Positions 28,536 through 57,447 of a DNA stretch of 64,000 nucleotides are shown one piece after another. The stretch's first letter is position 1; each line of letters opens with the position of its first letter. The DNA comes from Leucobacter sp. L43 (GTDB taxonomy: Bacteria; Actinomycetota; Actinomycetes; Actinomycetales; Microbacteriaceae). Under the pieces are notes generated by a model, which had not been told where the DNA came from, did not search any database, and saw only the letters and a program-made list of their open reading frames with translations. A program made the translations under genes and the position numbers. The DNA is taken from the NCBI RefSeq assembly GCF_016597785.1, contig NZ_JAENJG010000001.1, positions 1,736,001 through 1,800,000 on the forward strand, written 5' to 3'.

Positions 28536-29585
28536 TCAGGAGGCGAGGCGGCCCGGCCGAAGCGGCAGGCCCGCCGCCGTGTACACCTCGTCGATGAGGG
28601 TCATCGTACGACGGGAGCGCTCGAGGCCGACGCGCGATCGCTCACCGCTGCGCACCGCTGACCGAATGCGGCGCAGTTGATGGGTGTACGACGACGAAGC
28701 GCCCAAATGCTCCGAACGCTCTTCGACGCCGGCTCCCGTCGTCGTGCGCACGATGAGGCGCCCGTCCTCCTGAGGTTTCACGAAGTTCGGCAGCACGACC
28801 TCGCCCAGGCTTCCGTGCACTCGGAGCCCGAAGTTCCATTCGTCGCTCGCCATGCTCGTGTGCATCGACACGGGCACGCCTCCGAGCTCCAATCCGGCGA
28901 CGACCGTCGCATCGACCCTCGCGTCACCCGTGTGCCCCTCAGCCCGCGCGAAGTCGAGGGTGAGCGGCGCCGCAGTCGGCAGACGCACACCCCCGAGCTC
29001 TCCTCCGAGCTGATCTCCGAGCAGGAGCAGGGCGTGCAGCGCGTAGCACCCGAGATCCATCAGCGTGCCGCCGGCGAGATCGAAGCTCCATCGCGGGTCG
29101 CGCGGCGCGGGCGCCGGCATGTCCATATGCACGTCGACACCGCGGATCTCCCCGATCGCGCCCTCGCGCACGTGACCGATGAGGCGATGCATGGCCGGAT
29201 GATCGGCGTAGTGGAATGCCTCCCACGCCCAGCCGGCCGAGCGCTCGAGTCTGGCGGCGACGCGATCGAATTCTGCGAGGTTCGCCGCGAACGGCTTCTC
29301 GACGAGCACATTGCGTCCGGCTTCGAGCGCTCGTGCCGCCCACTCGGCGTGCAGCCCGTTGGGAAGGCCGATGTAGACGAGGTCGAGCGAGTCGTCTTCG
29401 ATGAGGGACGCGTAGCTCTCGGCTGCCGCCGAGAAGCCCCGTTCGGCGGCGTAGTGACGAGCGCGCTCGGGATCCCGCGCCGCGACAGCGGCACGAATGT
29501 CACCGGTCTCCGCCGTCGCCGCGATGATCGACTCCTCGGCGATGCGCGACGCGCCCAGCATGCCGATGCGCAGCGGCGCACTCAT
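28536..29585 (-). CDS. Gfo/Idh/MocA family oxidoreductase
   Basis: A 349-residue NAD(P)-dependent sugar or polyol dehydrogenase. The Rossmann start is RIGMLGASRIAE; the catalytic lysine is in NVLVEKPFA near residue 95; the C-terminal domain holds GGTLMDLGCYALHALLLLG. This N-terminus and the WEAFHYADHPAM segment recall the branch with dihydrodiol dehydrogenase and NADP-xylose/anhydrofructose enzymes. Its ATG overlaps the stop of the TIM-barrel gene upstream by 4 bp. It is the last of three genes (dehydrogenase, isomerase, dehydrogenase) and ends at a strong hairpin. Substrate unknown. Confidence 0.9.
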   Translation of the reverse strand: MSAPLRIGMLGASRIAEESIIAATAETGDIRAAVAARDPERARHYAAERGFSAAAESYASLIEDDSLDLVYIGLPNGLHAEWAARALEAGRNVLVEKPFAANLAEFDRVAARLERSAGWAWEAFHYADHPAMHRLIGHVREGAIGEIRGVDVHMDMPAPAPRDPRWSFDLAGGTLMDLGCYALHALLLLGDQLGGELGGVRLPTAAPLTLDFARAEGHTGDARVDATVVAGLELGGVPVSMHTSMASDEWNFGLRVHGSLGEVVLPNFVKPQEDGRLIVRTTTGAGVEERSEHLGASSSYTHQLRRIRSAVRSGERSRVGLERSRRTMTLIDEVYTAAGLPLRPGRLAS

Positions 29586-30478
29586 GACGCCTCCGGGATG
29601 TCGGTCGCGCCGAGTGCCTCGCGCAGGCAGGCGACGCTGCGGCGCGCGCTGTCGAACGCCGCCACCGCGTCAGCTTCGTGCTCGATGACCGTATCCTGCT
29701 CCACCACGTACCATCCGGCATACCCCACGCCGCGCAGCGCGCGGACGATCTCCACGATGCGCGCGTCGCCGGCGCCGAGTGACCGATACATGCCCTGGCG
29801 CACCCCCTCGCGGTAGTCGATCTCTCCGGCTCGCACCCGCGCGGCGACGGCGAGACTCACATCCTTCAGGTGCGCGTGCACGATGCGGTCCGCGTACTGC
29901 TCCACGAAGGCGACCGGATCGCCGCCGCCGAGCGTGTAATGGCCCGTATCGAGGCACAGGCCGATGCGGGAGCCTGCGATCACGCGCTCCACCGCATTCG
30001 GGGCCTCGACCACCGTGCCGAGATGGGGGTGCAGGGTCGCCACCACCCCGACGGCGGCGGCGGCATCGTGCGCACGATCGAGGTTGGCGAGCAGCGTGAC
30101 CCATTCCGGGTCGCTCAACTCGATCGCACCGTCATACCCTTCCGCTCCCGTCACCGCCGAGAGCACGAGCGTCGTGGCGCCGGAGGCGACGTAGGCCTCG
30201 AGTTCGCGCTCGATCGCCGGCAGCGGATCCACCGCCGCCCGGTGCAGCACGACCGGGAAGAACCCGCCGACGGCTTCGAGGCCCGCTGCGGCGAGCGCTG
30301 CGGCGCGCTCGGCCGGAGCATCGGGCAGAAACCCTTCCGGCCCGAACTCGGTCGCCGTGATCCCGAGCGACACCATCTCGGAGAGCACGCGCTCCCGCTC
30401 CAACTGCAGCCCCCAATCGGGGACCTCGATGACGCCCCAGCTGATGGGGGCGGCTGCGATGCGTGCGCGATGTGCCAT
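29582..30478 (-). CDS. Sugar phosphate isomerase/epimerase family TIM-barrel protein (IolE-like)
   Basis: A 298-residue protein of the xylose-isomerase-like TIM-barrel superfamily. The start ARIAAAPISWGVIEVPDWG closely follows inosose dehydratase (IolE)-type N-termini, and likely metal ligands are in GLCLDTGHYTLGG and HAHLKDV. ELDIS-type ends are replaced by GWYVVEQDTVI. It could dehydrate or epimerise a keto-polyol made by the dehydrogenases on either side. It lies 39 bp after the first dehydrogenase and overlaps the second by 4 bp. Distinct from the iolE of the main operon (49116-50033), so a different stereoisomer may be its substrate; this is inference. Confidence 0.88.
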   Translation of the reverse strand: MAHRARIAAAPISWGVIEVPDWGLQLERERVLSEMVSLGITATEFGPEGFLPDAPAERAAALAAAGLEAVGGFFPVVLHRAAVDPLPAIERELEAYVASGATTLVLSAVTGAEGYDGAIELSDPEWVTLLANLDRAHDAAAAVGVVATLHPHLGTVVEAPNAVERVIAGSRIGLCLDTGHYTLGGGDPVAFVEQYADRIVHAHLKDVSLAVAARVRAGEIDYREGVRQGMYRSLGAGDARIVEIVRALRGVGYAGWYVVEQDTVIEHEADAVAAFDSARRSVACLREALGATDIPEAS

Positions 30479-30517
30479 GTGCGACTCCTTCGTCGGTGCA
30501 GTGCGAGTGGATGAGGA

Positions 30518-31738
30518 TCAGGCGCCGGCCGCGGTCGTGCCCTCGACCGGCGTGCTCGACTGCCAGGTGCGCGTCTCGGCCGATCGCTCGGCCGCCGAGA
30601 CCACCTGGGCCGCCGAGAGCGCATCCTGAATATTCGAGTTGATGGCCTCGCGCCCGAGCACCGCCTGGAGGAACTTCTTGGCCTCGATCACCTTGAGGTC
30701 GTCGTATCCCATCGAGGTCCCGGCTCCCGGCTGGAAGCGGCTGAAATCACCCATCCCCGGCCGGGCCATGACGCGCGTGTACCCCTGGTTCTCCGCGCCC
30801 AGCCCGCCCGAGAGGTGCAGCTCGTTCATGCGCTCGAAGTCCCAGTGCGCCGAGCCGCCCGTGCCGTAGACCTCGATGCCGTAGCTCGCGCGAGGGCCCA
30901 CCGAGACCCGGGAGGCCTCGAGGGTGCCGACGGCGTGCGCCGCCGGAGCCCCGTCCGCGACGCGCACGAGCATCCCGGCGTAGTCCTCGTTCTCGACCGG
31001 TTTCATGTCGCCGTTCTCGATCAGCGCGAAGTGGGTTCCCGTGCCCATCGGAAGCTCGGGGCGCTCGGCGTACACCGTCGAGGTGACTGCGCTGACCTCG
31101 CCGATCGGGCCGAGCGTGTACTGGACGAGATCGACCAGGTGGCCCATGAGGTCGCCCAGAACGCCGTTGCCCGCCAGCCCCCGCACGAAGCGCCACGACA
31201 GGGCGCCGCGCGGGTCGGCCGAGTAATCCGCGAACATCTGCCCGCGGACATTCGTGATGCGCCCGAGCCTGCCCTCGGCCACGAGTTCGCGCAGGTACTC
31301 GATCGCGGGTGCATGGCGATAGTTGAACCCGATCGACGTGACGACGCCGGCCTCCTTGGCCGCGTCCGCGACCGCGCGGGTCTCGTGCTCGCCGCGGCCG
31401 ACCGGCTTCTCGATCCAGAAGTGCTTGCCGGCCCGGGCCGCCGCGATGCCGATCTCCGAGTGCAGGAAGTTCGGGGCGCAGATCGACACGACGTCGACGT
31501 CTGGATCGTTCAGCACATCGTGGTAGTCCGCCGAAGCCCGCTCGTACCCGAGCACGCGCACCGCCTCATCCGTACGCGCCGGCGCCGGGTCCGCCGCGTG
31601 CACCAGGCGGGGTGCGAGCCCGAGATCCGGGTACGCGTACTTGAGGTTGGCGTAGGCGCGGCTGTGCAGCTGGCCCATCCACCCGACGCTGATGAGGCCC
31701 ACCCCGATCTCGGTGGTGCCGTCTGCACGTGTCCGCAT
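30518..31738 (-). CDS. Gfo/Idh/MocA family oxidoreductase, long type
   Basis: A 406-residue dehydrogenase. Rossmann motif GLISVGWMGQLHSRAY, catalytic lysine in FWIEKPVGRG, and C-terminal features GNGVLGDLMGHLVDLVQY and GYDDLKVIEAKKFL. Its size and these motifs resemble the roughly 390-residue branch that includes levoglucosan dehydrogenase and IolW-like enzymes. ATG 31738 is used; GTG 31771 would add eleven residues. It is first in a three-gene operon. About 125-150 bp upstream sit a palindrome and a TGT-N4-ACA site, suggesting LacI-type and IolR-type control. The substrate is not evident. Confidence 0.9.
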   Translation of the reverse strand: MRTRADGTTEIGVGLISVGWMGQLHSRAYANLKYAYPDLGLAPRLVHAADPAPARTDEAVRVLGYERASADYHDVLNDPDVDVVSICAPNFLHSEIGIAAARAGKHFWIEKPVGRGEHETRAVADAAKEAGVVTSIGFNYRHAPAIEYLRELVAEGRLGRITNVRGQMFADYSADPRGALSWRFVRGLAGNGVLGDLMGHLVDLVQYTLGPIGEVSAVTSTVYAERPELPMGTGTHFALIENGDMKPVENEDYAGMLVRVADGAPAAHAVGTLEASRVSVGPRASYGIEVYGTGGSAHWDFERMNELHLSGGLGAENQGYTRVMARPGMGDFSRFQPGAGTSMGYDDLKVIEAKKFLQAVLGREAINSNIQDALSAAQVVSAAERSAETRTWQSSTPVEGTTAAGA

Positions 31739-31861
31739 CTTCGCTCGTTTCGTCTTCGTGGTGCCGTGCACCGGTTCTCACTGTGGGGCCGGCCGGGGGC
31801 CGGGCCCGGGTCTGGGATCCTCGCCTGTCGACCGGAGTGATCCTGACTCTGGACTTGATTC

Positions 31862-31873
31862 TGGACCGGTCCA
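31862..31873. promoter_or_regulatory. Palindrome TGGACCGGTCCA, LacI-type operator candidate
   Basis: Perfect 12-bp palindrome with a central CG, the usual form of LacI/GalR sites. The right half, TCCAA, is shared with the operator at 41037. It lies upstream of the dehydrogenase-isomerase-dehydrogenase operon; three LacI genes are within 10 kb. Confidence 0.6.
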
Positions 31874-31876
31874 AAT

Positions 31877-31886
31877 TGTACGGACA
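31877..31886. promoter_or_regulatory. TGT-N4-ACA motif, possible IolR site (weak)
   Basis: TGTACGGACA. It has the outer TGT and ACA of five better sites in this window but departs from the remembered IolR consensus KGWCHTRACA at two of ten positions. Confidence 0.35.
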
Positions 31887-32044
31887 TGGTGGCTGCGGTG
31901 TCAACAGTCCCGTGGGACCGAGGGTGTCCGCCGAACCCGAGCGAATCCCGCCGCCCGAATCCCTCGTGCTCAGCACTCGAGCTCGATCTCGGTGCGGGGG
32001 CGCCGGTGCAGCGGGGGCGGCCGGTGCGCCCCCGGGATGCAGAA

Positions 32045-32078
32045 CGGGCGCCCGATCCTCATCCGGATCGGGCGCCCG
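32045..32078 (-). terminator. Terminator of the sugar ABC operon
   Basis: Perfect 14-bp stem (CGGGCGCCCGATCC and GGATCGGGCGCCCG) with a 6-nt loop, 22 bp beyond the ATPase stop. No T-run. Confidence 0.75.
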
Positions 32079-32100
32079 CCCTCGCGGAACCGAGAGACGC

Positions 32101-33090
32101 TCAGCGGCGTGAACGCCCTGGGGCGTCCTCCCCGTCGTCGTCCTCGTCGTCCGCGTACTCGCCGGGGACGACGGTGACGGCCTCGGTCACCTGCACGCGT
32201 CCCACGCCCGCCGCGGCGTCGCCCTCGATCTCATCGCGGATCGTGCGCACCGCGTCGGTGCTCGTGCCGACATCCCGCAGTTCGTGGACCAGCTGCTCGA
32301 GCTCCGCGCCGCCGGCCATGAGTCCGGTGAGCTCCTCGAGCGAGATCGCCGATTTCTCGTGGTACCCGATGCTCTGTCCGCGCTTCAGCAGCAGGAAGCG
32401 ATCGCCCACCGGGTAGGCGTGGTGCGGATTGTGGGTGATGAAGATCACGCCGAGGCCGCGATCGCGCGCCTGGATGATGTAGCGCAGCACCACACCCGAC
32501 TGCTTCACGCCGAGCGCGGCGGTCGGCTCGTCGAGGATCAGCACCTTCGCGCCGAAGTACACGGCTCGCGCAATGGCCACGCACTGGCGCTCGCCGCCCG
32601 AGAGGGTGCCGATCGGCTGATCCACGTCGCGCAGATCGATGCCCATGTCGAGCAGCTCCTGCTTCGCCGTCTTGCGCATGAAGTCGACGTCGAGCCGCTG
32701 GAACGGACCCCAGCCCTTCGTCTGCTCCGACCCGAGGAAGAAGTTGCGCCAGACCGGCATGAGGGGCGCGACCGCGAGATCCTGATACACGGTGGCGATG
32801 CCCCGGTTCAGCGCCTCGCGCGGCGAGTTGAACTTCACCGGTTCGCCCTCGACGAGGTACTCGCCGGCGGTGTGCTGATGGAGCCCTGCGATGATCTTGA
32901 TGAGCGTGGACTTGCCAGCGCCGTTGTCGCCGAGCACGCACATCACCTCGCCGCTCGCCACCTGCAGGCTGACGTCGCGGAGCGCGATGATGTTGCCGTA
33001 CCGCTTCTCGGCGTCGCGCAGCTCGACGAGCGGCGCCTTCGCGGTTGCCGTGGCCGTCGCCGGAGCGGCGGCTGTCGATGTGGCGTTCAC
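32101..33090 (-). CDS. Sugar ABC transporter ATPase (FrcA-like, single domain)
   Basis: A 329-residue ABC ATPase for monosaccharide or polyol import. It has Walker [10 protein letters not shown], signature LSGGERQ, Walker [16 protein letters not shown], and the switch histidine in [14 protein letters not shown]. Unlike RbsA/XylG it has one ATPase domain, as in the fructose/inositol FrcA branch. It ends in an unusual acidic stretch, [19 protein letters not shown]. The start is GTG 33090 behind GGAGGG, with a GTGA overlap onto the permease stop. Binding protein, permease and ATPase form one operon whose promoter carries an IolR-like site, so inositol is a likely cargo. Confidence 0.92.
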
Positions 33091-34133
33091 TTTTTCCCTC
33101 CTCGCGCCGCGCGGCGCTGCAGCGTGAAGTTCAGCACGGTGGCTCCGAGGAGCATGGCGCCGAGGAAGAACTTCAGCCAGTCCGGATTCCACTCCGCGTA
33201 CACGACGCCCTTGAGCGCCATGCCGTAGATCAGTGCGCCGATCGCGCCGCCGATCGCCGAGCCGTATCCGCCGGTCATGAGGCAGCCGCCGACGACGGCC
33301 GCGATGATGTAGAGGAACTCGTTGCCGATGCCCTCACCCGACTGCACCGTCTTGAATGCGAAGAGCTGGTGCATGCCGAGCAGCCACGCGCAGAAGCTGA
33401 CGCCCATGTAGAGGCCGATCTTCGTCTTCACGACGGGGACGCCCACGGCGCGAGCCGCGTCGGGGGCGCCGCCCGACGAGAAGATCCAGTTGCCGACCTT
33501 GGTGCGCTGCAGGATCCAGGTCGCGATGAGCACGAGGATGATCCAGTAGAAGACCGTGATCTTGACGTTGACGCCGAAGACGGGGATGTCGGCCGCGAAC
33601 ACCGCTTCCGCGGAGGCGAACCCGGGCCACTGCGCGATGGAGGGGGCTGCGACGCCGCCCGTGAGCGCGCGCGTCACGCCGAGGTTGAGGCCGGTCAGCA
33701 TGAAGAAGGTCGCGAGCGTGATGATGAAGCTCGAGAGCTTCGTCTTCGTCAGCAGCCAACCGTTGAGCAGCCCGATCAGCAGCGAGAACACCAGGCCGAC
33801 GATCGCTCCGACCCAGACGTTCCCCCCGAACCAGTACATGAAGAGGGACGAGGAGAGCGCCGCCGAGATGACGCCGACACCCGCCGACAGGTCGACCTCG
33901 CCGCCGATCATCAGGAGCGATACGCCGACCGCCATGATGCCGACGGTCGAGGCGCCGTACAGGATCGTCGCGATCGAGCTCGGCTGGGTGAACTGGGGGG
34001 CGACCACGGCGAACATGATCGCGAGTACCAGTGCGGCTGCGGTGGCGCCCGCCTCGGGCTTCGTGAAGAACCTGGTGAACAGGTTGCCAGAGGCGACGCG
34101 CTCATCGAGCTTGGGTGCGGTTGCTGTACTCAT
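33087..34133 (-). CDS. Sugar ABC transporter permease (RbsC/FrcC-like)
   Basis: A 348-residue BPD_transp_2 family permease with about nine or ten membrane helices. Conserved stretches are [19 protein letters not shown] and [19 protein letters not shown], and the ATPase-contact region is near [21 protein letters not shown] long outside loop (about residues 165-195, [15 protein letters not shown]) faces the binding protein. It works as a homodimer with the ATPase encoded downstream, whose GTG overlaps its stop by 4 bp. It ends in a basic tail, RRAARGGKK. Confidence 0.93.
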
Positions 34134-34162
34134 GGATTCGACCTTCCGGCGCGACCCTTCTC

Positions 34163-35185
34163 TTACTCTGCCGACTCGTCGTCGCCGCTGCCTTCGAACT
34201 GCGCGGAGACGCTGTCGGCGTTTTCGGCGTTGACGACGGTGGGTCCGGTCAGCACGGCCTGGCCGCCGCCGAGCACGTATCCGCCCTCGGTGTAGAGGCG
34301 CACCGCTTCAACGGCGGAGTATCCCTGCACGAACGGCTGCTGATCGATGCCGAAGAGGATCGTGCCGTCCTTGATCGCGGTGTAGACGTCGGCGTTGAGG
34401 TCGGTCGTGGCGAGCGTCGCGCTGCTGCCGGCGTCGGCGATCGAGTCCATCGCGGTCATCGCGAAGGGTGCTCCGAGGGTGAGCACCGCGTCGATGTCGG
34501 AGTTGGTCTGCAGCTTCGACGTGATGGTCGAGGCGACGTTGGTCATGTCGGTGCCCTGCACGTAGAGCACTTCCGACGTGCCCTCGAAGGTGTCCGCGAG
34601 CCCCTCGCAGCGGGCTTCGAGGCCGACGTGCCCCTGCTCCTGGATGACGCAGACGGCCTTCTTCAGGCCGGCGTCGTTGAACTGCTCGCCAGCCGCCTGG
34701 CCTGCGATGAACTCGTTCTGCCCGAAGTGCGCGAGCACTCCGAGGTCCTTGTAGGCTTCCTCGCCCGCGTTGATGCTGAAGACGGGGATGCCCGCGTCGA
34801 CGGCCTTCTGCACTTCGCCCGCCATGGCGTCCGACTTCGCGAGCGTCACGACGATGCCGTCCACGCCCTGGTCGACTGCCTGCTGCACGAGCTGAGCCTG
34901 GCGCGCACCGTCGGGATCAGAGCTGTAGAGCAGCTCGACGTTATTGCGTTCGGCGGCGTTCTCGGCCCCCGAGCGGATGGTGTCCCAGAAGGTGTCGCCC
35001 GGTGCGGCGTGCGTGACGAGTGCAACCTTGATCTCTTCTTCGTCGACGCCACCGCCGCCGCCACCACCTGCAGCACCGCCGCCGGCGCCGGCGGGAGTAC
35101 CGCACGCAGCGAGGGCCAGTGCTCCGACGCCCGCGAGGCCTGCGAGGCCGATCTTCGACCAACGCCCGAAACGTGATTTCAACAT
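34163..35185 (-). CDS. Sugar/polyol ABC transporter binding lipoprotein
   Basis: A 340-residue periplasmic-binding-protein type 1 (RbsB/FrcB-like) lipoprotein. The signal ends in LAAC (Cys 28), followed by a glycine-rich tether with seven G in a row. The ligand domain begins EEIKVALVTHAAPGDTFWDT and contains VDQGVDGIVVTLAKSDAM and GIPVFSINAGEEAY, with hinge strands typical of D-ribose, fructose or inositol binders. Start ATG 35185 has GGAGTG upstream. It heads the importer operon, divergent from a LacI gene. TGTCGTTACA lies 30 bp upstream of the ATG. Confidence 0.92.
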   Translation of the reverse strand: MLKSRFGRWSKIGLAGLAGVGALALAACGTPAGAGGGAAGGGGGGGVDEEEIKVALVTHAAPGDTFWDTIRSGAENAAERNNVELLYSSDPDGARQAQLVQQAVDQGVDGIVVTLAKSDAMAGEVQKAVDAGIPVFSINAGEEAYKDLGVLAHFGQNEFIAGQAAGEQFNDAGLKKAVCVIQEQGHVGLEARCEGLADTFEGTSEVLYVQGTDMTNVASTITSKLQTNSDIDAVLTLGAPFAMTAMDSIADAGSSATLATTDLNADVYTAIKDGTILFGIDQQPFVQGYSAVEAVRLYTEGGYVLGGGQAVLTGPTVVNAENADSVSAQFEGSGDDESAE

Positions 35186-35573
35186 AGCTGCACTCCATCG
35201 TGTAATTGAACTAATGTCGTTACAAAGCTTGCGCTCTGCGTTTACAGTACCGTAACTTCCGCGATCCGGCATCTCTTCCGGTAAAGGTTGAATAACGACC
35301 ACTCGGCACCTCGCTCATGTCTGTTGCAGCCATCTGTACGGTCTCTCGCAGCGTTCCGCGGAGCGCTGCGGCTCACGGGCGATGCCGACAGCGCCGGTCG
35401 CTCTCGAGCGCCGCGCGCCAGCCGCAGCTGCCGCGTCGGCTCGCTTTCGAACGGCGAGAAACCCCTCCGCCTCTAGTATCCCGCTGTCCGGCGTCTCCCC
35501 GGGCGCACCGAGCGCGGACGGGTGCGGGTCGCGCAGTGCCGGTGACCGCGGCACGCCGTGGCACGATGGGAGC
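35186..35573. other. 388-bp divergent control region, ABC operon and LacI gene
   Basis: The AT-rich part next to the ABC operon holds the IolR-like site (35215-35224) and a second inverted repeat, TTAC-N6-GTAA, at 35242-35255. The rest towards the LacI gene is GC-rich, and I see no clear LacI operator or further gene there. Confidence 0.55.
35215..35224. promoter_or_regulatory. TGT-N4-ACA motif, putative IolR site, ABC operon
   Basis: TGTCGTTACA, followed by AAG as in two other sites. The identical 10-mer occurs before the IolT-like gene at 46103. It lies 30 bp upstream of the binding-protein start, in promoter position. Confidence 0.6.
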
Positions 35574-37803: not shown

Positions 37804-38592
37804 TCAGGGCGCGAGCGCAGTCGGGAACGCGGCCGCGAACGCGTCGAGCGCAGCATCGGCGTCTCCGCTCGCCCAGGCCTCCATGCCGACCACGCCGTCG
37901 TATCCGACCTCGCGCAGCACCCGCGCCACGGCCTCGTATCGGATCTCGCCCGTGCCGGGCTCGCAGCGCCCCGGCACGTCGGCGACCTGGATCTCACCGA
38001 TCCACGGCAGCGACTCGCGCACGAGCTCGACGAGATTCCCCTCGCCGATCTGCGCGTGGTAGAGGTCGAGATTGAGTCGCAGGTTGGGGTGGTCGACCCC
38101 GCGCACGAGGGCGAGCGTGTCGGCAGCCCGCGCGAACGGTGTGCCCGGATGGTCGACTGCGGTGTTCAGATTCTCGAGCACGAAGGTGCGCCCGGCTGCC
38201 GCACCCAGATCGGCCACTCGGCGGAGGGTGTCGGCGGCGTGAACCCAGTCCGCTCCCGAGACCCGCGCCCCGGGCACGACCGGCAGGCCGCCCTCGCCGA
38301 GACCGGTGCCGTGCAGGTTGAGGCGCGGGGCATCGATGACCTCTGCAGCCCGCAACGATTCGCCCGCGGTCGCGAGCAGGGCAGCACGGCCCTCGGCGGT
38401 CGTGAGGTCGCCGCGCAGGTAGCCGGTCATCGAAGAGAACGCGGCCCCGGTCGCGGCGAGGGCGGCGAGATCCTTCGTGCTCCAGTCCCAGATCTCCACG
38501 AGAAATCCGCGCTCGTGGATGCGTCGCACGCGCTCCGCGATCGGCAGGTCGGTGTACAGCATCTCGGCGCAGGCCGCGAGACGATAGCTCAT
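37804..38592 (-). CDS. Hydroxypyruvate-isomerase-like TIM-barrel protein
   Basis: A 262-residue member of the xylose-isomerase-like TIM barrels, closest in feel to hydroxypyruvate isomerase (Hyi/OtnI). Start MSYRLAACAEMLYTDLPIAE followed by ERGFLVEIWDW; likely metal ligands in FVLENLN (E), LNLDLYHAQIGEGNL (D/H), IQVADVPGRCEPGTGEI, and GVVGMEAW (E). These last motifs are nearly those of Hyi. It lies 31 bp after the dehydrogenase and 48 bp before LacI-2. It may isomerise a ketone made by the dehydrogenase, or a short keto-acid. Confidence 0.88.
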   Translation of the reverse strand: MSYRLAACAEMLYTDLPIAERVRRIHERGFLVEIWDWSTKDLAALAATGAAFSSMTGYLRGDLTTAEGRAALLATAGESLRAAEVIDAPRLNLHGTGLGEGGLPVVPGARVSGADWVHAADTLRRVADLGAAAGRTFVLENLNTAVDHPGTPFARAADTLALVRGVDHPNLRLNLDLYHAQIGEGNLVELVRESLPWIGEIQVADVPGRCEPGTGEIRYEAVARVLREVGYDGVVGMEAWASGDADAALDAFAAAFPTALAP

Positions 38593-49031: not shown

Positions 49032-49115
49032 GGTCGATGGTTCCTTTCGATTCGAATCCGGGCCCGAGGGCGATCCCTGGACCGGCAGCGCGCGCCGCGA
49101 TGCGACGCTCGAGCG

Positions 49116-50033: not shown

Positions 50034-50079
50034 GACCTGTCCTTCGTATTTCGCGGTGAGATTCGGGAGGGATCGGCGC

Positions 50080-52020
50080 TCAGCCGAGCAGCGGCTTCTG
50101 CGCGGCTGCCTGCTCCTCATAGGCGGCTCGCGCGCGCTGCGTCGACTCGAGCGTCGAAACCTGCTGCACCGGCACGTCCCACCAGCCGGCGCCGTCGGGG
50201 GCGTAGACCAGCGGGTCGCTGTTGATGTGGATGAACGTCGCGCGATCCGACGCCTTCGCCTGAGCGATCGCCCGCTCCAGGTCGGAGATCGCGTCGCTCG
50301 TCGGTTCGACCTCGATGACGTCCATGCCGTAACTGCGGGCGTTCATCGCAAGGTCGACCGGCAGCACTCGCTCGCCCTGGAAGTTCTTCGCGGTGTCGTC
50401 GTACTCGCGGTACCAGGTGCCGAAGCGCTCGGAGCCGACCGTTTCGGAGAGGTGGCCGATCGAGGCGTAGCCGTGGTTCTGGATGAGGATCACGATGACC
50501 TTGATGCCCTCGGCGACCGCGGTCACGAGCTCGCTGTTCAGCATCAGATACGAGCCGTCGCCGACCATGATGATCACGTCGCGGTCGTCACCTGCAGCGG
50601 TCAACCCGCGCTTCGCGCCGATACCGCCCGCGATCTCGTAGCCCATGCACGAGTACGCGTACTCGACGTGGTACCCGAGCGCGTCGCGCACGCGCCACAG
50701 CTTGTGCAGGTCGCCCGGCAGCGATCCCGCCGCCTGCACGACCACGTCCTCCGCAGCACTCGAGCGCTGCACCGCTCCGATGATCTCCGGCTGGCCGGGC
50801 AGCTCCCTGCCGGAGGGGGCGAACGCCTCGTCCACGAGGCCGTCCCACGCCGCTTTCTCCGCGGCGATGCGCTCGGCGTAGGCGGCGTCGACGCCGAGCT
50901 GCGCGGCAGAGCCCCCCTCGAGCGCTGCGAGCAGCTCGACGAGCGCCTCTCTGGCGTCGGCGATCACCGGGATCTGCGTGCCGTGCTTGTACGCGTCGAA
51001 TGACGCCACGTTGATGTTGACGAAGCGCACGCCGGGGTGCTGGAACGCGGTGCGCGACGACGTCGTGAAATCGCTGTAGCGCGTGCCGATCCCGATGATG
51101 ACATCGGCATCCGCAGCGAGGCGATTGGCCGCGAGGGTGCCGGTCGCCCCGACACCGCCCAGGTACTGCGGATGATCCCAGTCGAGCACGCCGCCGCCGG
51201 CCTGCGAGGAGCCGACGGGAATGCCGGTCGCCTCGACGAACGCGCGCAGCTGCTGCTCGGCGTCCGAGTACAGCACGCCTCCGCCCGCGACGATGAACGG
51301 GCGTTTCGCCTCGCGGATCGCCTCGAGCGCGACGGCGAACGCATCGCGCTCGGGGCGCGGACGGCGAATGCGCCACTCGCGCGGTTGCAGGAACTCCTCC
51401 GGAACATCGACGGCCTCCGCCTGCACGTCTTCGGGGAGCGCGATCGTCACGGCTCCGGTCTCGGCAGGATCGGTGAGCACGCGCATGGCGGCGAGCGCGA
51501 TCGAGAACAGCTGCTCGGGGCGCTGCACCCGGTCGAAGAACTTGGAGACCGGGCGGAAAGCGTCATTCACCGTCAGCCCGATGTCGTGCGGCTGCTCCAG
51601 CTGCTGCAGCACGGGGTCGGCGACGCGCGTCGCGAACGTGTCGCTCGGCAGCAGCAGCGCTGGCAGGCGGTTCGTCGTGGCGAGCGCCGCGCCCGTGAGC
51701 AGGTTCGTGGCGCCGGGGCCGACCGATGCAGCAGCGGCGTAGGTGCCGCGCCGACGGTGCATGCGGGCGTAGCCCACCGACTGGTGCACCATCGCCTGCT
51801 CGTTGCGAGCCTGGTAATAGGGCATGAGGTCGGGCTGCTCGACGTTGACCTGCTTGAGGGCCTGGCCGATCCCGGCGACATTGCCGTGCCCGAAGATGCC
51901 GAACGTTCCGGGAATGGTGCGCTCGCGGATCTCGGTTCCGTCGGCCGCGCGATCGACGGTCCACTGGTTCGCGAGGAACTCGATCAGTGCTTGACTCACG
52001 GTCATCCGTCGGGTCGTCAT
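50080..52020 (-). CDS. iolD: 3D-(3,5/4)-trihydroxycyclohexane-1,2-dione hydrolase
   Basis: A 646-residue thiamine-diphosphate enzyme that opens the ring of the trihydroxycyclohexanedione to 5-deoxy-glucuronate. It has the three-domain layout of the acetolactate-synthase family: FGIFGHGNVAGIGQAL and YYQARNEQAMVHQSVGYAR, with the catalytic glutamate in RNEQ, at the N-terminus; and the ThDP motif MVGDGSYLMLNSEL near residue 485. The length is normal for IolD. Its ATG overlaps the iolB stop by 4 bp. Confidence 0.97.
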   Translation of the reverse strand: MTTRRMTVSQALIEFLANQWTVDRAADGTEIRERTIPGTFGIFGHGNVAGIGQALKQVNVEQPDLMPYYQARNEQAMVHQSVGYARMHRRRGTYAAAASVGPGATNLLTGAALATTNRLPALLLPSDTFATRVADPVLQQLEQPHDIGLTVNDAFRPVSKFFDRVQRPEQLFSIALAAMRVLTDPAETGAVTIALPEDVQAEAVDVPEEFLQPREWRIRRPRPERDAFAVALEAIREAKRPFIVAGGGVLYSDAEQQLRAFVEATGIPVGSSQAGGGVLDWDHPQYLGGVGATGTLAANRLAADADVIIGIGTRYSDFTTSSRTAFQHPGVRFVNINVASFDAYKHGTQIPVIADAREALVELLAALEGGSAAQLGVDAAYAERIAAEKAAWDGLVDEAFAPSGRELPGQPEIIGAVQRSSAAEDVVVQAAGSLPGDLHKLWRVRDALGYHVEYAYSCMGYEIAGGIGAKRGLTAAGDDRDVIIMVGDGSYLMLNSELVTAVAEGIKVIVILIQNHGYASIGHLSETVGSERFGTWYREYDDTAKNFQGERVLPVDLAMNARSYGMDVIEVEPTSDAISDLERAIAQAKASDRATFIHINSDPLVYAPDGAGWWDVPVQQVSTLESTQRARAAYEEQAAAQKPLLG

Positions 52021-53042
52021 CGTGCCTGCTCCGTTTCGGTCACTGGGGTCTGCGGGGTGAAGGGAAGGCGCGCGTCGAGTTCCTGACCCTCCCAGGTGTC
52101 GCGCACCCAGCCGTGCGCCGGGTCGTCGCTGATGAGCCAGGTGCGCTCTGGATCGGGGCCGGCCATCACGTTGAGGTAGTACATGTCGTACCCGGGGGCG
52201 GCGACGGCGGGCCCGTGGTAGCCGTGCGGCACGAGCGCGATGTCACCGGTGCGCACCTGCGAGTCGATCTCGATGGGCCCGGCCGGTGAGGCGTACGTGC
52301 TGAACAGGCCGAACGCGCGCTCGGGATCGACGCCGGCGGGGGCGTCCTTCGTCGGCGCGACCTCGAAGTAGTAGATCTCCTCGAGCTCCGACTCGTGCCC
52401 CGGGATGTGCTCGTCGTGCTTGTGCGGCGGGTACGACGACCAGTTCTCGGCCGGAGTGATGACTTCGACGACGATGAACCGTGCCGCGTCGAGCGACTCC
52501 TTGCGGCCGAAGTTGTGCACCTGGCGACTCGAAGCACCGGCGCCGCGCAGCTCGACCGGCACGTCCTCGACCGCCATGTAGCGGGAGGGGCGCACGAGGG
52601 CCGGGTCGTCCGCCGGCACCGGAGAGGTGGCGACGAGGAAGCGCGCTTCGCCCGATGGTGCCGAGGTCGCGGTGACCTCGGCCTCGGCGACCGCTGACAG
52701 GTAGAGCACGTCGGTCGGCCCGTCGAAGACGGAGGCGCGTCCGGCGAGATCGACCGTCGTCTCGGTGTCGGCATCGGCCCCGGCAGCAGTCGCGGCCGGC
52801 GCGCGGCCGTCTTCGCGGTATCGCACGGAGAACGCGCCGGAGAGGGGAACGATCAGTCGTTCGACGCCGCTCCCGTCGAGGGCGATGGACGCACCCTCGG
52901 CGAGCCGGGCGACCCGCACACCCGTGTGCTCCCAGCCGGGGATGCGCTCGTCGACGACGGACTCCCACCCTCCTTCGGCGAGCTCGCCGCGCCGATGGAA
53001 CCATCGGCCGGCCGGTGCCGTCTGCTGCGCGTCGTGCGTCAT
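52017..53042 (-). CDS. iolB: 5-deoxy-glucuronate isomerase
   Basis: A 341-residue double-cupin (KduI/IolB) metal enzyme that turns 5-deoxy-glucuronate into 2-deoxy-5-keto-gluconate. The metal site is recognised in YPPHKHDEH followed by ESELEEIYYFEV, and the late histidine in ALVPHGYHGPAVAAPGYDMY is typical of IolB. GGAGGGG lies before the ATG at 53042; the frame upstream lacks similarity. It is longer than the 270-residue Bacillus form because of an N-terminal acidic/alanine-rich insertion (about residues 85-95). It sits between iolA and iolD. Confidence 0.96.
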   Translation of the reverse strand: MTHDAQQTAPAGRWFHRRGELAEGGWESVVDERIPGWEHTGVRVARLAEGASIALDGSGVERLIVPLSGAFSVRYREDGRAPAATAAGADADTETTVDLAGRASVFDGPTDVLYLSAVAEAEVTATSAPSGEARFLVATSPVPADDPALVRPSRYMAVEDVPVELRGAGASSRQVHNFGRKESLDAARFIVVEVITPAENWSSYPPHKHDEHIPGHESELEEIYYFEVAPTKDAPAGVDPERAFGLFSTYASPAGPIEIDSQVRTGDIALVPHGYHGPAVAAPGYDMYYLNVMAGPDPERTWLISDDPAHGWVRDTWEGQELDARLPFTPQTPVTETEQAR

Positions 53043-53067
53043 GTCGCCCCTCCTCCGGTGCGTTCGA

Positions 53068-54582
53068 TCAGTCGTTCTGGGGGAACCCGAGGTTGATGCC
53101 GCCGTGCGTCGCGGGATCGAGCCAGCGACTGGTGATGGCTTTCTCACGGGTGAAGAACTCGAAGCCCTGCACGCCGTACGCCTTCGAGTCGCCGAAGAGC
53201 GACGCCTTCCACCCGCCGAAGGAGTGGTATGCGACCGGCACGGGGATCGGGACGTTGATGCCGATCATGCCGACCTGGATCTCGTGCTGGAAGCGGCGGG
53301 CCGCACCGCCGTCGTTCGTGAAGATCGCAGTGCCGTTGCCGAACGCGCCCGAGTTGATGAGCTCGACGCCCTCTTCGAACGTCTCGACGCGCACGATCTC
53401 GAGCACGGGCCCGAAGATCTCCTCGGTGTAGGCGCGCGACGTCGTCGGCAGGTGATCGATGAGCGTCGGCCCCACGAAGAACCCGTTCTCGTGCCCGTCG
53501 ACTGAGAAGCCCCGGCCGTCGACGACGATGGTCGCCCCGTCCTGCTCGGCGATGTCGATGTAGCCGGTCACCTTGTCGCGATGCGCATCGGTGATGAGCG
53601 GCCCCATGTCGGGTTCGGGCGTCGATGCGCCGTTGCCGATCGAGAGGTTCGCGATGCGCTCGGTGATCTTCTCGATGAGCGCGTCGGCGACGGGCTCGAC
53701 CGCGAGCACGACCGAGATCGCCATGCAGCGCTCGCCTGCGGCGCCGTATCCGGCGTTGATCGCCTGGTCTGCGACGAGGTCGAGGTCGGCATCGGGCAGC
53801 ACCAGCATGTGGTTCTTCGCTCCGCCCAGAGCCTGCACGCGCTTGCCGTGCTTCGAGGCGGTCTCGTAGATGTACTGCGCGATCGGCGTTGATCCCACGA
53901 ATGAGATCGAGTGCACGCCCGGGTCGGTGAGCAGGCCGTCGACGGCGAGCTTGTCGCCGTTGAGCACGGTGAAGACGCCGTCGGGCAGGCCGGCCTCCTG
54001 CCAGAGCTCGGCGAGCCACAGGGCCGCAGAGGGATCCTTCTCGGAGGGCTTCACGATGACGGCGTTGCCCGCGGCGATCGCGACGGGGAAGAACCACATC
54101 GGCACCATGGCCGGGAAGTTGAAGGGGGCGATGATGCCCGCCACGCCGATCGGCTGCTTGATCGAGTAGACGTCGATGCCGGTCGAGGCGTTCTCGGAGA
54201 ACGCGCCTTTGATGAGGTGCGGGAATCCTGTGGCGAGTTCCACGACCTCCTGGCCGCGCAGGATCTCGCCCATGGCGTCCGAGACCACTTTGCCGTGCTC
54301 GCGCGTGATGATCTCGGCGAGCTCGCCCTTGCGGGCGTTCAGCAGCTCGCGGAACTTGAAGATGACGGTCTGGCGCTTCGCCATGGAGAATGCGCTCCAG
54401 GCCTCGAAGCCGCGGGTGGCCGAGGCGATCGCCGCGGCGATCTCCGCCTCGTCGGCGAGGGCGACGTGCGCCTGCACCTCGCCGGTCGCCGGGTTGAAGA
54501 CGGGGGCGGTGCGGCCGCTCGTCGAGGCGCGACGTGCGCCGTCGATCCAGTGCGGGATCACGGGGAGGGAATCAGTGCTCAT
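53068..54582 (-). CDS. iolA: CoA-acylating malonate/methylmalonate-semialdehyde dehydrogenase
   Basis: A 504-residue aldehyde dehydrogenase that converts malonate semialdehyde to acetyl-CoA and CO2 with NAD and CoA, the last step of inositol breakdown; it can also serve valine breakdown. The catalytic cysteine is C286 in GAAGERCMAISV, and the NAD region is ISFVGSTPIAQYIYETASKH, where the CoA-acylating MmsA group lacks the usual glutamate (LGGAKNH in place of ELGGK). The start overlaps the aldolase gene by 11 bp. It lies between the aldolase and iolB. Confidence 0.96.
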   Translation of the reverse strand: MSTDSLPVIPHWIDGARRASTSGRTAPVFNPATGEVQAHVALADEAEIAAAIASATRGFEAWSAFSMAKRQTVIFKFRELLNARKGELAEIITREHGKVVSDAMGEILRGQEVVELATGFPHLIKGAFSENASTGIDVYSIKQPIGVAGIIAPFNFPAMVPMWFFPVAIAAGNAVIVKPSEKDPSAALWLAELWQEAGLPDGVFTVLNGDKLAVDGLLTDPGVHSISFVGSTPIAQYIYETASKHGKRVQALGGAKNHMLVLPDADLDLVADQAINAGYGAAGERCMAISVVLAVEPVADALIEKITERIANLSIGNGASTPEPDMGPLITDAHRDKVTGYIDIAEQDGATIVVDGRGFSVDGHENGFFVGPTLIDHLPTTSRAYTEEIFGPVLEIVRVETFEEGVELINSGAFGNGTAIFTNDGGAARRFQHEIQVGMIGINVPIPVPVAYHSFGGWKASLFGDSKAYGVQGFEFFTREKAITSRWLDPATHGGINLGFPQND

Positions 54583-55540
54583 TGCGGGTGTCCTTCGTGT
54601 CGTTCGTGTGCGAGATCGAAGCGAGACCGCGGATCGGCTGCGCCTCGCGAGGAGTTTCGGGGAGATCGCGGTGCACCAGCCGCGCGGCCGTGTCGACCGC
54701 GGCGGCGACGTCGCCGTCGTGCGGGTAGAGCAGCGTGCGGCCGACCGTGAGGCCGCGCACGCCGGGCAGGGCGAGGGCGCTCTCCCACGAGGCGAACGTC
54801 TCGTCGGGATCGCCGCCGTTGTCGCCGCCGAGCAGCAGCGTCGGCATCGTCGTGGCCTCCATGACGCGCTCCATCTCGGGGACCACCGGCAGCTTCATCC
54901 ACGTGTAGGCGCTCGAATTGCCGAGCCCGGAGGCGATGGCCGTCGAGAGGATCACCGCGTCCGCCGAGAGATCGTTGATCACCTTTCCGCCGACGCGGCT
55001 GCTCATGAACGGCTCGAGCATGATCGGCAGCCCCGCGGCCGCGGCAGCGTCGACGGCGCGAGCGGTCGCCTGGAGCGTCGACGCGGTGCCGGCGTCGTTC
55101 AGGTCGACGCGGATGAGCGTCTTCGCGAAATCGAGGCCGTGACTGACCATCGCGTCGATGTCGTAGGCCGTATACCGGTCGTCGAGCTCGAACGAGGCGC
55201 CGCGCAGCCCGCCCCGATTCATCGACCCGACGACGATCTTGTCGTCGAGCAGGCCGAGGGCTGCCAGATCGTCGATGATGTCGGGGGTTCCGAGCACGCC
55301 GTCGACGCCGGGGCGCGAGAGCGCCAGCGCCATCCGCTCGAGCAGATCGTAACGATTGGCCATGGCGGTGGCGTGACCGCCAACGGCGATCGCTCCGCGG
55401 GCCGGGTGATCCGCGGCCACGATGAAGAGCCTGCCGTCACCGGCGATGACGTCGCGCCGGCGCCGTTCGGCGAGCGCGCGAGTGATGCCGGACGGGTCCG
55501 CGGCGCGCAGCTGGCGCAGGCGGTCGAAGTCGAGTGCCAC
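54572..55540 (-). CDS. Cgl0159-type (beta/alpha)8-barrel aldolase of the iol operon
   Basis: A 322-residue TIM-barrel protein that holds the place of the IolJ/DeoC aldolase in actinobacterial iol operons. It would split 2-deoxy-5-keto-gluconate 6-phosphate into malonate semialdehyde and dihydroxyacetone phosphate. Visible stretches are RLFIVAADHPARGAIAVGGH, KIVVGSMNRGGLRGASFELD, KTLIRVDLND and MPTLLLGGDNGGDPDETF; the lysine in FAKTLIRVD is a candidate Schiff-base residue. Start GTG 55540, two bases after the iolC stop, with AAGGGGG upstream. The role is inferred from operon position; the family is less studied than IolJ. Confidence 0.88.
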   Translation of the reverse strand: MALDFDRLRQLRAADPSGITRALAERRRRDVIAGDGRLFIVAADHPARGAIAVGGHATAMANRYDLLERMALALSRPGVDGVLGTPDIIDDLAALGLLDDKIVVGSMNRGGLRGASFELDDRYTAYDIDAMVSHGLDFAKTLIRVDLNDAGTASTLQATARAVDAAAAAGLPIMLEPFMSSRVGGKVINDLSADAVILSTAIASGLGNSSAYTWMKLPVVPEMERVMEATTMPTLLLGGDNGGDPDETFASWESALALPGVRGLTVGRTLLYPHDGDVAAAVDTAARLVHRDLPETPREAQPIRGLASISHTNDTKDTRNEH

Positions 55541-55542
55541 GA

Positions 55543-56499
55543 TCAGGCCCCCTTCGCGAGCAGGGTTTCGACCTCTGCGGCGTCGGGCATCGCCGTCGAG
55601 CACTCGCGGCGCGTGGCCACGATCGCTCCTGCGACGTTGGCGAAGCGGAAGATGCGCTCGAGGTCCCAGCCCTCGAGCAGCCCGTGGCAGAGCGCTCCGC
55701 CGAAGGCGTCGCCCGAGCCGAGGCCGTTGATCACATCGACGAAGTGCGGGGGCACCTCCACGCGCTCCTCCCGGGTCTTCGCGAGTACGCCCTTGGGCCC
55801 CTGCTTCACGATCGCGAGTTGCAGACCGCGATCGAGCAGCGCGTCTGCGGCTCGGTCCGGCTCGGTCTCCCCCACCGCGACCTCGCACTCCTCGCGGTTT
55901 CCGACCGCGATCGTCGCGCGGCCGATCGCCGCCGCGACCTGCTCCGTGGCTTCGGCCGCGTCGCCCCAGAACATGGGGCGGTAGTCGAGGTCGAAGATCG
56001 TGTGCGCGGCGCCGTCTCGTGCTTCGAGGGCGGCGTGGTGCGTCGACCGGCTCGGCTCCTCGCTCAGTCCGGTGAGCGTGAACCACAGGATGCGCGCCTC
56101 GCGGACGGCCTCGAGGTCGAGATCCTCGACCGCGATCTGCAGATCGGGCGCCTTCGGCTTGCGATAGAAGTAAAGCGGGAAGTCGTCCGGCGGGAAGATC
56201 TCGCAGAAGGTGACCGGCGTGGGGTACTCGGGGTCGACGCGGACCTCGCGATTGTCGACCCCGAGTCGTTCGAGTTCGCGCAGCAGGTACGTGCCGAAGG
56301 GGTCGTCGCCGACGCGTGAGATCAGAGCGCTCGCCCGGCCGTACTTCGCTGCGGCCACCGCGACATTCGCCGCGCTCCCGCCGAGGTATTTGCCGAAGCT
56401 GGTGACATCTTCGAGGCCGATCCCGTCTTGCAATGGGTAGATATCGACTCCGAGCCGACCCAGTGCCAGAACGTCATCCCGACGCCGCAGTTCCGACAT
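55543..56499 (-). CDS. iolC: 5-dehydro-2-deoxygluconokinase
   Basis: A 318-residue PfkB-family (ribokinase-fold) kinase that phosphorylates 2-deoxy-5-keto-gluconate. N-terminal motif GKYLGGSAANVAVAAAKYG and C-terminal signature GLGSGDAFGGALCHGLL with catalytic base D264 are clear. FPPDDFPLYFYRKPKAPDLQ is typical of IolC. It is the first gene of the eight-gene iol operon. GAGAAGGCGAG lies before the ATG. The best IolR-like site of the window is 54 bp upstream. Confidence 0.96.
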   Translation of the reverse strand: MSELRRRDDVLALGRLGVDIYPLQDGIGLEDVTSFGKYLGGSAANVAVAAAKYGRASALISRVGDDPFGTYLLRELERLGVDNREVRVDPEYPTPVTFCEIFPPDDFPLYFYRKPKAPDLQIAVEDLDLEAVREARILWFTLTGLSEEPSRSTHHAALEARDGAAHTIFDLDYRPMFWGDAAEATEQVAAAIGRATIAVGNREECEVAVGETEPDRAADALLDRGLQLAIVKQGPKGVLAKTREERVEVPPHFVDVINGLGSGDAFGGALCHGLLEGWDLERIFRFANVAGAIVATRRECSTAMPDAAEVETLLAKGA

Positions 56500-56552
56500 T
56501 CGCTACTCGCCTTCTCGTAGTGACGCAGGCGGGCCCCGTGCACCGCTGCATT

Positions 56553-56562
56553 TGTCCTAACA
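56553..56562. promoter_or_regulatory. TGT-N4-ACA motif, best IolR site, iolC promoter
   Basis: TGTCCTAACA fits the remembered corynebacterial IolR consensus KGWCHTRACA at all ten positions. It lies 54 bp before iolC and 127 bp before the divergent regulator gene. Confidence 0.7.
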
Positions 56563-56613
56563 ATAGCACGAAGCGGCGGGGCGCCACGTGCACACTCCGC
56601 TCGGGGGTAATGT

Positions 56614-56623
56614 TGTCATCACA
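56614..56623. promoter_or_regulatory. TGT-N4-ACA motif, putative IolR site, iolR promoter
   Basis: TGTCATCACA followed by AAG, nine of ten positions of the same consensus. It is 66 bp before the GntR regulator start, so it may serve autoregulation. Confidence 0.6.
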
Positions 56624-56688
56624 AAGAGGTCGCTCGCGGCCCACCGCATTCGATCCGCGTGCCACCCCAGCGCCGAGGAGCACCGCAC

Positions 56689-57447
56689 ATGAGCATTGAA
56701 CCCGTCTGGCCGAGCGAGCTCTTCACCGATCTCGACCGCAGCGGCCCCATCCCCCTGTACTTCCAGATCTCGAGCCGACTCGAGCGCGCGATCCGCGACG
56801 GCATCATCCCAGCCGGCGCTCGCCTCGAGAACGAGATCGCGATCGGGCAGCATCTCGGCCTCTCACGCCCGACCGTGCGACGCGCGATCCAGGAGCTCGT
56901 CGACAAGGGCCTGCTCGTACGGCGCCGGGGCATCGGCACCCAGGTCGTGCAGGCCAGGGTGAGCCGACCCGTCGAGCTCACGAGCCTGCAGGAGGATCTC
57001 ACCCGCGCGGGCCACCACCCGAGCACGCGGGTGCTCTCACTCGAGAAGATCCCCGCGGACGAGGAAGCGGCGGTGCGACTCCGCGTCGACGTCGGCACCG
57101 AGATCACGCGCATCCGCCGGCTGCGCAGCGCCGACGGCACCCCGATGGCGATCCTCGAGAACCTCCTGCCGCCCGAGTACGCCGACATCACGTTCGCGGA
57201 CCTCGAGACGCACGGGCTCTACGAGATGCTGCGAGCGCGCGGCATCGCCATCAAGATCGCGAACCAGACGATCGGAGCGCGGCGCACTCACAGCGACGAG
57301 CACGAACTGCTCGACGTCGCGAAGGGCAGCCCCGTGCTCACCATGGATCGCGTCGCCTTCGACCAGGGCGGCAGTGTCATCGAGGCCGGGCATCACTGCT
57401 ACCGGCCGGATCTGTACTCGTTCGAGACCACACTCGTCTCCCGGTAG
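56689..57447 (+). CDS. iolR: GntR/HutC family regulator, probable IolR
   Basis: A 252-residue regulator with an N-terminal winged helix (PIPLYFQISSRLERAI through LGLSRPTVRRAIQELVDKGL, residues 21-76) and a C-terminal UTRA ligand domain (from about residue 95, with ITRIRRLRSADGTPMAILEN). The UTRA domain places it in the HutC subfamily. It is divergent from iolC, as iolR is in Corynebacterium, and the gap holds two TGT-N4-ACA sites. It probably represses the iol genes until an inositol intermediate is present. GAGGAGCAC lies ahead of the ATG. Confidence 0.92.
   Translation: MSIEPVWPSELFTDLDRSGPIPLYFQISSRLERAIRDGIIPAGARLENEIAIGQHLGLSRPTVRRAIQELVDKGLLVRRRGIGTQVVQARVSRPVELTSLQEDLTRAGHHPSTRVLSLEKIPADEEAAVRLRVDVGTEITRIRRLRSADGTPMAILENLLPPEYADITFADLETHGLYEMLRARGIAIKIANQTIGARRTHSDEHELLDVAKGSPVLTMDRVAFDQGGSVIEAGHHCYRPDLYSFETTLVSR

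Follow-up and report, generated by a model that had tools for sequence, protein, structure and literature searches.

The region between positions 28536 and 57447 of a 64-kb stretch of the Leucobacter sp. L43 genome (the window; the genome is 3.15 Mb) is best read as a catabolic cluster for inositol stereoisomers, in which several feeder enzymes converge on a trunk like that of the iol1 cluster of Corynebacterium glutamicum. We assign this reading a probability of roughly three in four. It is drawn from homology, gene order, motifs and conserved palindromes; the substrates and regulator-operator matches given below are predictions throughout. As the first-pass annotation of this DNA had proposed, the island contains six Gfo/Idh/MocA dehydrogenase genes (28536, 30518, 38624, 41116, 43521 and 48015, named here by first coordinate) and five TIM-barrel genes (29582, 37804, 42345, 47003 and 49116), all of which exceed the Pfam cut-offs for GFO_IDH_MocA and AP_endonuc_2, respectively. 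Three LacI regulators (the open reading frame at 35382, 36712 and 39847), an ABC importer (32101-35302) and an MFS porter (44565) are also present as described, and the GntR gene at 56659 is a further regulator missing from that earlier list.

Pfam matching across the whole genome returned ten Gfo genes, six of them in the island, and 11 TIM-barrel genes, of which ten exceed the cut-off and five are in the island. The upper bounds on chance clustering are ~1.5e-8 for six of ten Gfo genes within 20.5 kb and ~2e-6 for five of ten barrels, and the concentration of these genes is therefore not due to chance. Intergenic gaps were computed from gene ends using the chosen start codons. Genes 28536 and 29582 overlap by 4 bp, and gaps of 39, 31 and 38 bp separate 29582 from 30518, 37804 from 38624 and 41116 from 42345; the gaps in the run 47003/48015/49116 are 139 and 84 bp. 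Gene 43521 has no TIM-barrel partner and adjoins the MFS gene. Two other sites in the same genome (~1506923-1514924 and 952636-954557 of G000:C1) carry TIM-barrel genes near a Gfo gene.

The trunk was compared with C. glutamicum iol1. Genome G275 was used as C. glutamicum, since its OxiD is 100% identical over 327 residues to PDB 3EUW, the C. glutamicum OxiD structure (PMC9603128); an OxiD match was found in four of the 242 genomes scanned. Region 39847-57447 has the same content as iol1, mostly in the same order. Identities are 61% for the GntR regulator, 70% for IolC, 76% for the Cgl0159-type aldolase, 81% for IolA, 83% for IolD, 85% for IolE, 74% for IolG, 66% for IolH, 47% for IolW (43521), 41% for the LacI regulator (39847), 58% for OxiB (41116) and 80% for Cg0212 (42345). 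Dehydrogenases 41116, 43521 and 48015 and barrels 42345, 47003 and 49116 thus have iol1 counterparts at 47-85% identity. The run of iolC, aldolase, iolA, iolB, iolD, iolE, iolG and iolH typical of iol1 is present, with IolB recognized by its model alone (218 bits, cut-off 205), as the 296-residue gene at the IolB place of C. glutamicum has no match among the window proteins at 1e-5. The LacI/oxiB/cg0212 unit adjoins the trunk in inverted orientation, and 43521 (47% identity, VVARS motif) is the probable IolW-type reductase. IolD, IolB, IolC, IolA and the IolG-type product of 38624 all exceed their NCBIfam cut-offs.

On the minus strand, the trunk encodes IolH (E1, 47003-47875), an IolG of the myo/D-chiro type (E2, 48015-49031, FGY motif), the inosose dehydratase IolE (49116-50033), IolD (50080-52020), IolB (52017-53042, its start inferred inside the open reading frame 52017-53147), the methylmalonate/malonate-semialdehyde dehydrogenase IolA (53068-54582), a Cgl0159-like aldolase at the IolJ position (54572-55540, start approximate) and the IolC kinase (55543-56499). 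The GntR gene (56659-57447, plus strand) matches its iol1 counterpart, presumably IolR, in both location and homology. Beyond it is a family 4 glycosyltransferase gene (57482-58762), which ends 35 bp from the GntR gene end. We propose that 2-keto-myo-inositol (2KMI) would be processed in turn by IolE, IolD, IolB, IolC and the Cgl0159-type aldolase, that IolA would then take malonate semialdehyde, and that GntR would control the trunk.

Motif rules for the dehydrogenases were taken from PMC9603128, and all motif calls are readings of two alignments. A Lys/Asp/His triad is kept in five of the six enzymes, 28536 having Tyr for His. Both 48015 (FGY, Glu) and 38624 (IGY, Asp) have Gly-Tyr in motif V, with the acidic residue at the cofactor position, and resemble NAD enzymes for myo- and D-chiro-inositol, while 41116 (GHP, Asp) has the motif V His of OxiB. 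The VVARS motif of 43521 places Ala-Arg at the cofactor position, as in the NADPH-type IolW; 30518 has Asp at this position and a motif V residue other than Tyr or His, and the VAARD motif of 28536 is read as NADP-type. For the barrels, the positions that we take to be metal ligands of the xylose-isomerase-like fold were compared. Glu, Asp and Glu are kept at the usual ligand places in 37804 and 42345, and His replaces the first Glu in 29582 and 49116. The usual Asp and last Glu of the set are missing from 47003 and from C. glutamicum IolH.

By motif and by its 74% identity to C. glutamicum IolG, 48015 may act as a myo/D-chiro-inositol dehydrogenase. The second candidate is 38624 (B2, 38624-39631, minus strand), an inositol 2-dehydrogenase of the OxiD type that is 52-53% identical to OxiD and scores 382 bits against the IolG model TIGR04380 (cut-off 355); the other five dehydrogenases score 54 to 184 bits. 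Together, 48015 and 38624 would oxidise myo- and D-chiro-inositol with NAD. The barrel beside 38624 (B1, 37804-38592, minus strand) is 72% identical to a C. glutamicum TIM barrel located 2 bp from a Gfo gene. That Gfo gene encodes Glu at the catalytic-Asp position, a replacement that PMC9603128 describes in IdhA3.

Pair 41116/42345 corresponds to the OxiB/Cg0212 pair. OxiB is an inositol dehydrogenase (PMC9603128), and the same source gives the locus names cg0211 (oxiB), cg0204 (iolG), cg0207 (iolW), cg2313 (idhA3) and cg3389-cg3392 (the oxiC-cg3390-oxiD-oxiE region). The orthologue of OxiB (C1, 41116-42306, plus strand) is predicted to be an NAD-type myo/scyllo-inositol dehydrogenase that would oxidise myo-inositol and, weakly, scyllo-inositol; its partner (C2, 42345-43352, plus strand) is a likely inosose isomerase. 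The numbers cg0212 and cg2312 are presumed assignments, made by position. Both proteins are reportedly isomerases linking 2KMI and 1-keto-D-chiro-inositol, and their orthologues 42345 (80% identity) and 37804 (72%) would then convert 1-keto-D-chiro-inositol to 2KMI. Across actinobacterial families, at loci chosen by likeness to the barrel, 42345 is ~80% and its partner 41116 ~62% identical; in Arthrobacter, IolD is ~65% identical.

A perfect palindrome, TTGGAGCGCTCCAA (41037-41050, no strand), lies between 41116 and the divergent LacI gene (39847-40866, minus strand) and is a putative LacI operator. It is the single exact copy in the genome, which at up to two mismatches holds 7 copies versus 13 for a reversed-pattern control. 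In the window alone, at three mismatches, TTGGAGCGCTCCAA occurs 5 times versus 3.2 expected, and the second palindrome, found at the ABC-linked module described below, 2 times versus 1.6. Neither is above chance, and the case for operators rests on conservation. Allowing two mismatches and 300 bp before a 41116 homologue, TTGGAGCGCTCCAA was found at 81 of 91 loci, where 1.6 would be expected from its density in these loci; two sites are duplicated, leaving 79 of 89 distinct loci. Where a LacI gene of the 39847 type is divergently arranged, 74 of 75 distinct loci have the palindrome, compared with 5 of the 14 that lack such a gene. The corresponding Fisher value of 2e-8 (76/77 versus 5/14, doubles included) is overstated, as related genomes are not independent. 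Exact copies precede oxiB of C. glutamicum (L152) and its homologue in four further Corynebacterium genomes (L126, L128, L129 and L108), so that the palindrome ranges from Leucobacter to Corynebacterium. Judging from position, one LacI regulator would control 41116/42345 via TTGGAGCGCTCCAA and another the ABC-linked module via TTGGACCGGTCCAA.

The remaining dehydrogenase of the iol1-like part (D, 43521-44555, minus strand) is predicted to be a keto-inositol reductase of the IolW/IolU type, which would reduce 2KMI to scyllo-inositol with NADPH. Next to it, the MFS sugar porter (44565-46040, minus strand) is 57% and 64% identical to two C. glutamicum porters, which we take to be IolT2 and IolT1, respectively. 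Between this gene and iolH lies a gene for a TauE/SafE family membrane protein (46148-46960, plus strand) that is kept across the genus, being found at 35% identity or more at 15 of 15 Leucobacter loci (L021-L034 and L038) and, at the same threshold, at 3 of 20 loci of other genera. A palindrome before the MFS/TauE genes, TAACAACATTGTTA, was rejected as an operator candidate after it was found at 3 of 34 loci (one strand, up to two mismatches); the window holds a one-mismatch copy on the other strand.

Several observations weigh against these assignments. Against the model for bifunctional myo/D-chiro-inositol dehydrogenases (NF052679, cut-off 540), 48015 scores 291 bits, and against the IolE model TIGR04379 (cut-off 290) 49116 scores 128 bits and 29582 scores 154. 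TIGR04379 seems to miss the clade of 49116, given the 85% identity of this protein to its C. glutamicum orthologue. No iol gene is seen in the examined flank of the 42345 homologue at 28 of 80 loci (some flanks end at contig ends), and this barrel type may therefore serve another role. IdhA3, whose gene adjoins the 37804 orthologue in C. glutamicum, did not support growth on inositols (PMC9603128). According to the same 2022 paper, the isomerase for 2KMI and 1-keto-D-chiro-inositol was still being sought. The passages of PMC11266056 and PMC7533341 that mention cg2312 do so as a deletion edge, without a function.

The rest of the island is a module (28536-35302, minus strand) comprising an ABC importer and three enzymes, A3, A2 and A1. 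A3 (30518-31711, start approximate) is an NAD-type Gfo dehydrogenase related to levoglucosan and scyllo-inositol/L-glucose dehydrogenases; A2 (29582-30478) is a putative second IolE-type dehydratase, with His as in IolE; A1 (28536-29585) is a Gfo/Idh/MocA reductase, putatively NADP-type, whose N-terminal half resembles sugar 3-ketoreductases. The importer (32101-35302) consists of an ATPase, a permease and a solute-binding protein, the last of which (34163) has a rhizopine-binding model as its best match; at 185.5 bits against a cut-off of 420 (NF052284), rhizopine uptake was rejected. As a separately regulated branch, A3 would oxidise, A2 dehydrate and A1 reduce with NADPH. None of the three enzymes has a close C. 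glutamicum counterpart (best ~30%). It had been suggested that at least two of the dehydrogenase/barrel pairs in the island may be undescribed. This is not supported, given iol1 counterparts for three dehydrogenases and three barrels, OxiD at 52% and the IdhA3-side barrel at 72%; only the ABC-linked module is without a close C. glutamicum counterpart.

Across the order, 75 of 396 genomes carry a relative of A2 (E <=1e-45); within the genus, where a threshold of at least 70% identity was applied, 22 of 54 do, Leucobacter sp. L43 among them. In other genera, A2 occurs in iol operons without a canonical iolE match in the examined stretch (L225, L227, L230 and L237), which makes it probable that A2 is an inosose dehydratase; both genes are present at L226, L232 and L235. 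The second palindrome precedes 30518 homologues in Leucobacter: allowing up to two mismatches, its data-derived form CTGGACCGGTCCAA occurs at 15 of the 16 loci and TTGGACCGGTCCAA at 14. The window copy of CTGGACCGGTCCAA (31861-31874, no strand) is a putative LacI operator of the module. In fewer loci the palindrome precedes the solute-binding protein gene, the 38624 type, LacI genes and the operon of an aldehyde dehydrogenase, ALDH2. It also stands before a gene labelled IolA at nine loci, with ALDH2 and IolD2, an IolD-like protein, visible at eight (at L028, IolD2 is not seen in the part examined). Two LacI genes adjoin the module, one at 35382-36632 (plus strand, start probably near 35607) and the other, LacI36, at 36712-37755 (minus strand); in sister genomes, LacI36 homologues adjoin ALDH2-IolD2.

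In sister Leucobacter genomes, the module continues with an HpaI-like aldolase, IolD2, ALDH2 and LacI36 and, after A1, with an SDR and further Gfo genes. Examples of IolD2, ALDH2 or HpaI-like genes beside LacI36 are L025:766-4278 and L252:15960-16778. Locus maps made by homology only were preferred to gene-call maps, which include spurious overlapping frames. IolD2 scores 740 bits against the IolD model (cut-off 715) and is ~43% identical to canonical IolD, and a long branch leads in the IolD tree to a clade (100/100) made up of the six IolD2 rows. The aldolase scores 169 bits to HpaI and 164 to GarL, both below cut-off. LacI36, ALDH2, IolD2 and HpaI occur with A3/A2 in Leucobacter (L255, on a single stretch) and in two further families of the order (L224 and L234). 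In a third further family (L240) the enzymes are present and a LacI36 match is absent, and in Nesterenkonia (L048) LacI36, ALDH2, IolD2 and HpaI are present and A3/A2 were not seen in the 21 kb examined. IolB, IolC and Cgl0159-type matches are absent from the 18-kb stretches of L224, L234 and L240 (the rest of those genomes was not searched). The homology map of the window shows no IolD2, ALDH2 or HpaI gene. A further 1.199 Mb of the genome, which with the window brings the coverage to ~1.26 of 3.15 Mb, likewise yielded no IolD2; the same 1.199 Mb holds an HpaI match at 40% and six ALDH matches at 33-40%, read as ordinary relatives.

These observations raise the tentative and rather unlikely suggestion that the module is part of an undescribed, kinase-free cyclitol route with its own ABC importer and LacI operator TTGGACCGGTCCAA, of which the window strain has a reduced form. 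In such a route, a Gfo enzyme would oxidise the ring, IolE2 would dehydrate it and IolD2 would open it, after which the HpaI/GarL-like aldolase and ALDH2 would finish without IolB, IolC or the Cgl0159-type aldolase; the window strain would pass the dehydrated ring to its ordinary IolD. The one literature search aimed at an IolD/HpaI route found no paper on it. In a separate search for the two palindromes, the best 10 of 36 matching papers hold only the string cg0210, and by rank order none holds two of TTGGAGCGCTCCAA, TTGGACCGGTCCAA and cg0210. Also possible, though we doubt it, is that the module forms the first part of a second cyclitol pathway whose later part was lost here, the A2 product entering the ordinary IolD. 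The distinctness of IolD2, the recurrence of its gene set with A3/A2 in Leucobacter and other families and the conserved palindrome before A3 all favour a second pathway. However, A2 by itself is no mark of a new pathway, since other genera have it in iol operons alongside IolC, IolD and IolA. The iol trunk is also present in those Leucobacter genomes that have IolD2, which may use the IolB, IolC and aldolase encoded there, and the absence of IolD2 from the L43 genome applies only to the part covered.

It is improbable that the pairs serve unrelated carbohydrates (levoglucosan, 3-keto-glycosides or L-glucose) and merely adjoin iol genes. The best NCBIfam model for both A3 and C1 is levoglucosan dehydrogenase, and both align over most of their length with L-glucose/scyllo-inositol dehydrogenase structures; the 28 loci at which a C2 homologue has no iol gene in its examined flank point the same way. 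Yet A3 and C1 score 277 and 262 bits against that model (NF052479, cut-off 650), and levoglucosan use was rejected on these scores. The C1/C2 orthologues, moreover, lie inside C. glutamicum iol1, and OxiB is an inositol dehydrogenase, as noted above. Of the substrates named in the first-pass annotation, the inositol stereoisomers (myo, D-chiro and scyllo) are thus retained, on motifs and orthology, and levoglucosan is not. We likewise give little credence to plain redundancy, in which all feeders would act on myo-inositol and the copies would add capacity only. There is a precedent in the seven potential dehydrogenases of C. glutamicum, which have overlapping activity (PMC9603128), but the copies in the island differ at the cofactor position, in motif V and in the ligand sets of their TIM barrels, and two different palindromes precede the modules. 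A cluster for inositol stereoisomers, in which, as first proposed, several pairs probably feed one central iol pathway, is consistent with both motifs and orthology.

The distribution of the OxiB/Cg0212-type pair was followed through 42345, for which 60 genomes, 36 of them of the genus, were searched. Besides L43, 14 of 36 Leucobacter genomes have a full-length homologue at 84% identity or more; in G024 (C1:146038-146623) the homologue is broken, with stops within. In the genus Corynebacterium, 7 of 201 genomes have a homologue (E <=1e-30). Among 341 relatives in named genomes, the best 80, chosen by likeness to 42345, come mostly from Arthrobacter and kin; 76 of these have a 41116 partner, 69 a LacI gene resembling 39847 (at least 38% identity) and 52 an iol gene in the examined flank. 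In the midpoint-rooted IolD tree, four Corynebacterium rows (L126, L128, L129 and L152) cluster with those of Leucobacter and Nesterenkonia (95/91), with Subtercola just outside that group (100/99), all inside a Microbacteriaceae set. This topology fits lateral spread of the cluster and suggests that IolD of C. glutamicum iol1 came from a Microbacteriaceae lineage by lateral transfer.

Likely roles are proposed here for 11 similar genes of a kind of cluster that is common among actinobacteria, together with a putative LacI operator that C. glutamicum, an industrial host, shares with Leucobacter and Arthrobacter. What is new here are the two conserved palindromes and, as a possibility, a second ring-breaking route involving the ABC-linked module; the second IolD lineage, with its own aldolase, is the part that stands out for experimental study.

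Overall, the island represents a known kind of cluster in enlarged form, and most of its pairs have orthologues in C. glutamicum. A survey of 7,384 inositol clusters gives Leucobacter musarum and Nesterenkonia muleiensis among its named examples (PMC9430895), so that the cluster type has already been published for the genus. At the L. musarum cluster (Fig. 2b of that survey), loci L039 and L244, on the same contig, hold the trunk genes and the A, B and C modules, and L. musarum retains genes for HpaI, SDR and Gfo5, which are absent from the window; in the survey's section on this cluster, no roles are given to the additional dehydrogenases and isomerases. The levoglucosan pathway LgdA/LgdB1/LgdB2 (PMC10066097) shares with the island a Gfo dehydrogenase, an AP_endonuc_2 barrel and an ABC importer, but the island falls below the model cut-off and its trunk is iol. 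The iol2 cluster of C. glutamicum (oxiC-cg3390-oxiD-oxiE) has a counterpart of OxiD in the island, 38624, while OxiC, cg3390 and OxiE have no island match above 37%. In C. glutamicum the Cg2312 barrel is paired with IdhA3, whereas the island pairs a barrel of this type with an OxiD-type enzyme. Relative to iol1, the LacI/OxiB/Cg0212 unit is inverted in Leucobacter and a TauE gene has been added, and the iol1 genes of 458 (after iolH), 152 and 128 residues have no window match. The two clusters share the palindrome TTGGAGCGCTCCAA before oxiB, and the Leucobacter island, unlike iol1, joins OxiD-type and Cg2312-type genes and an extra ABC module into a single cluster.

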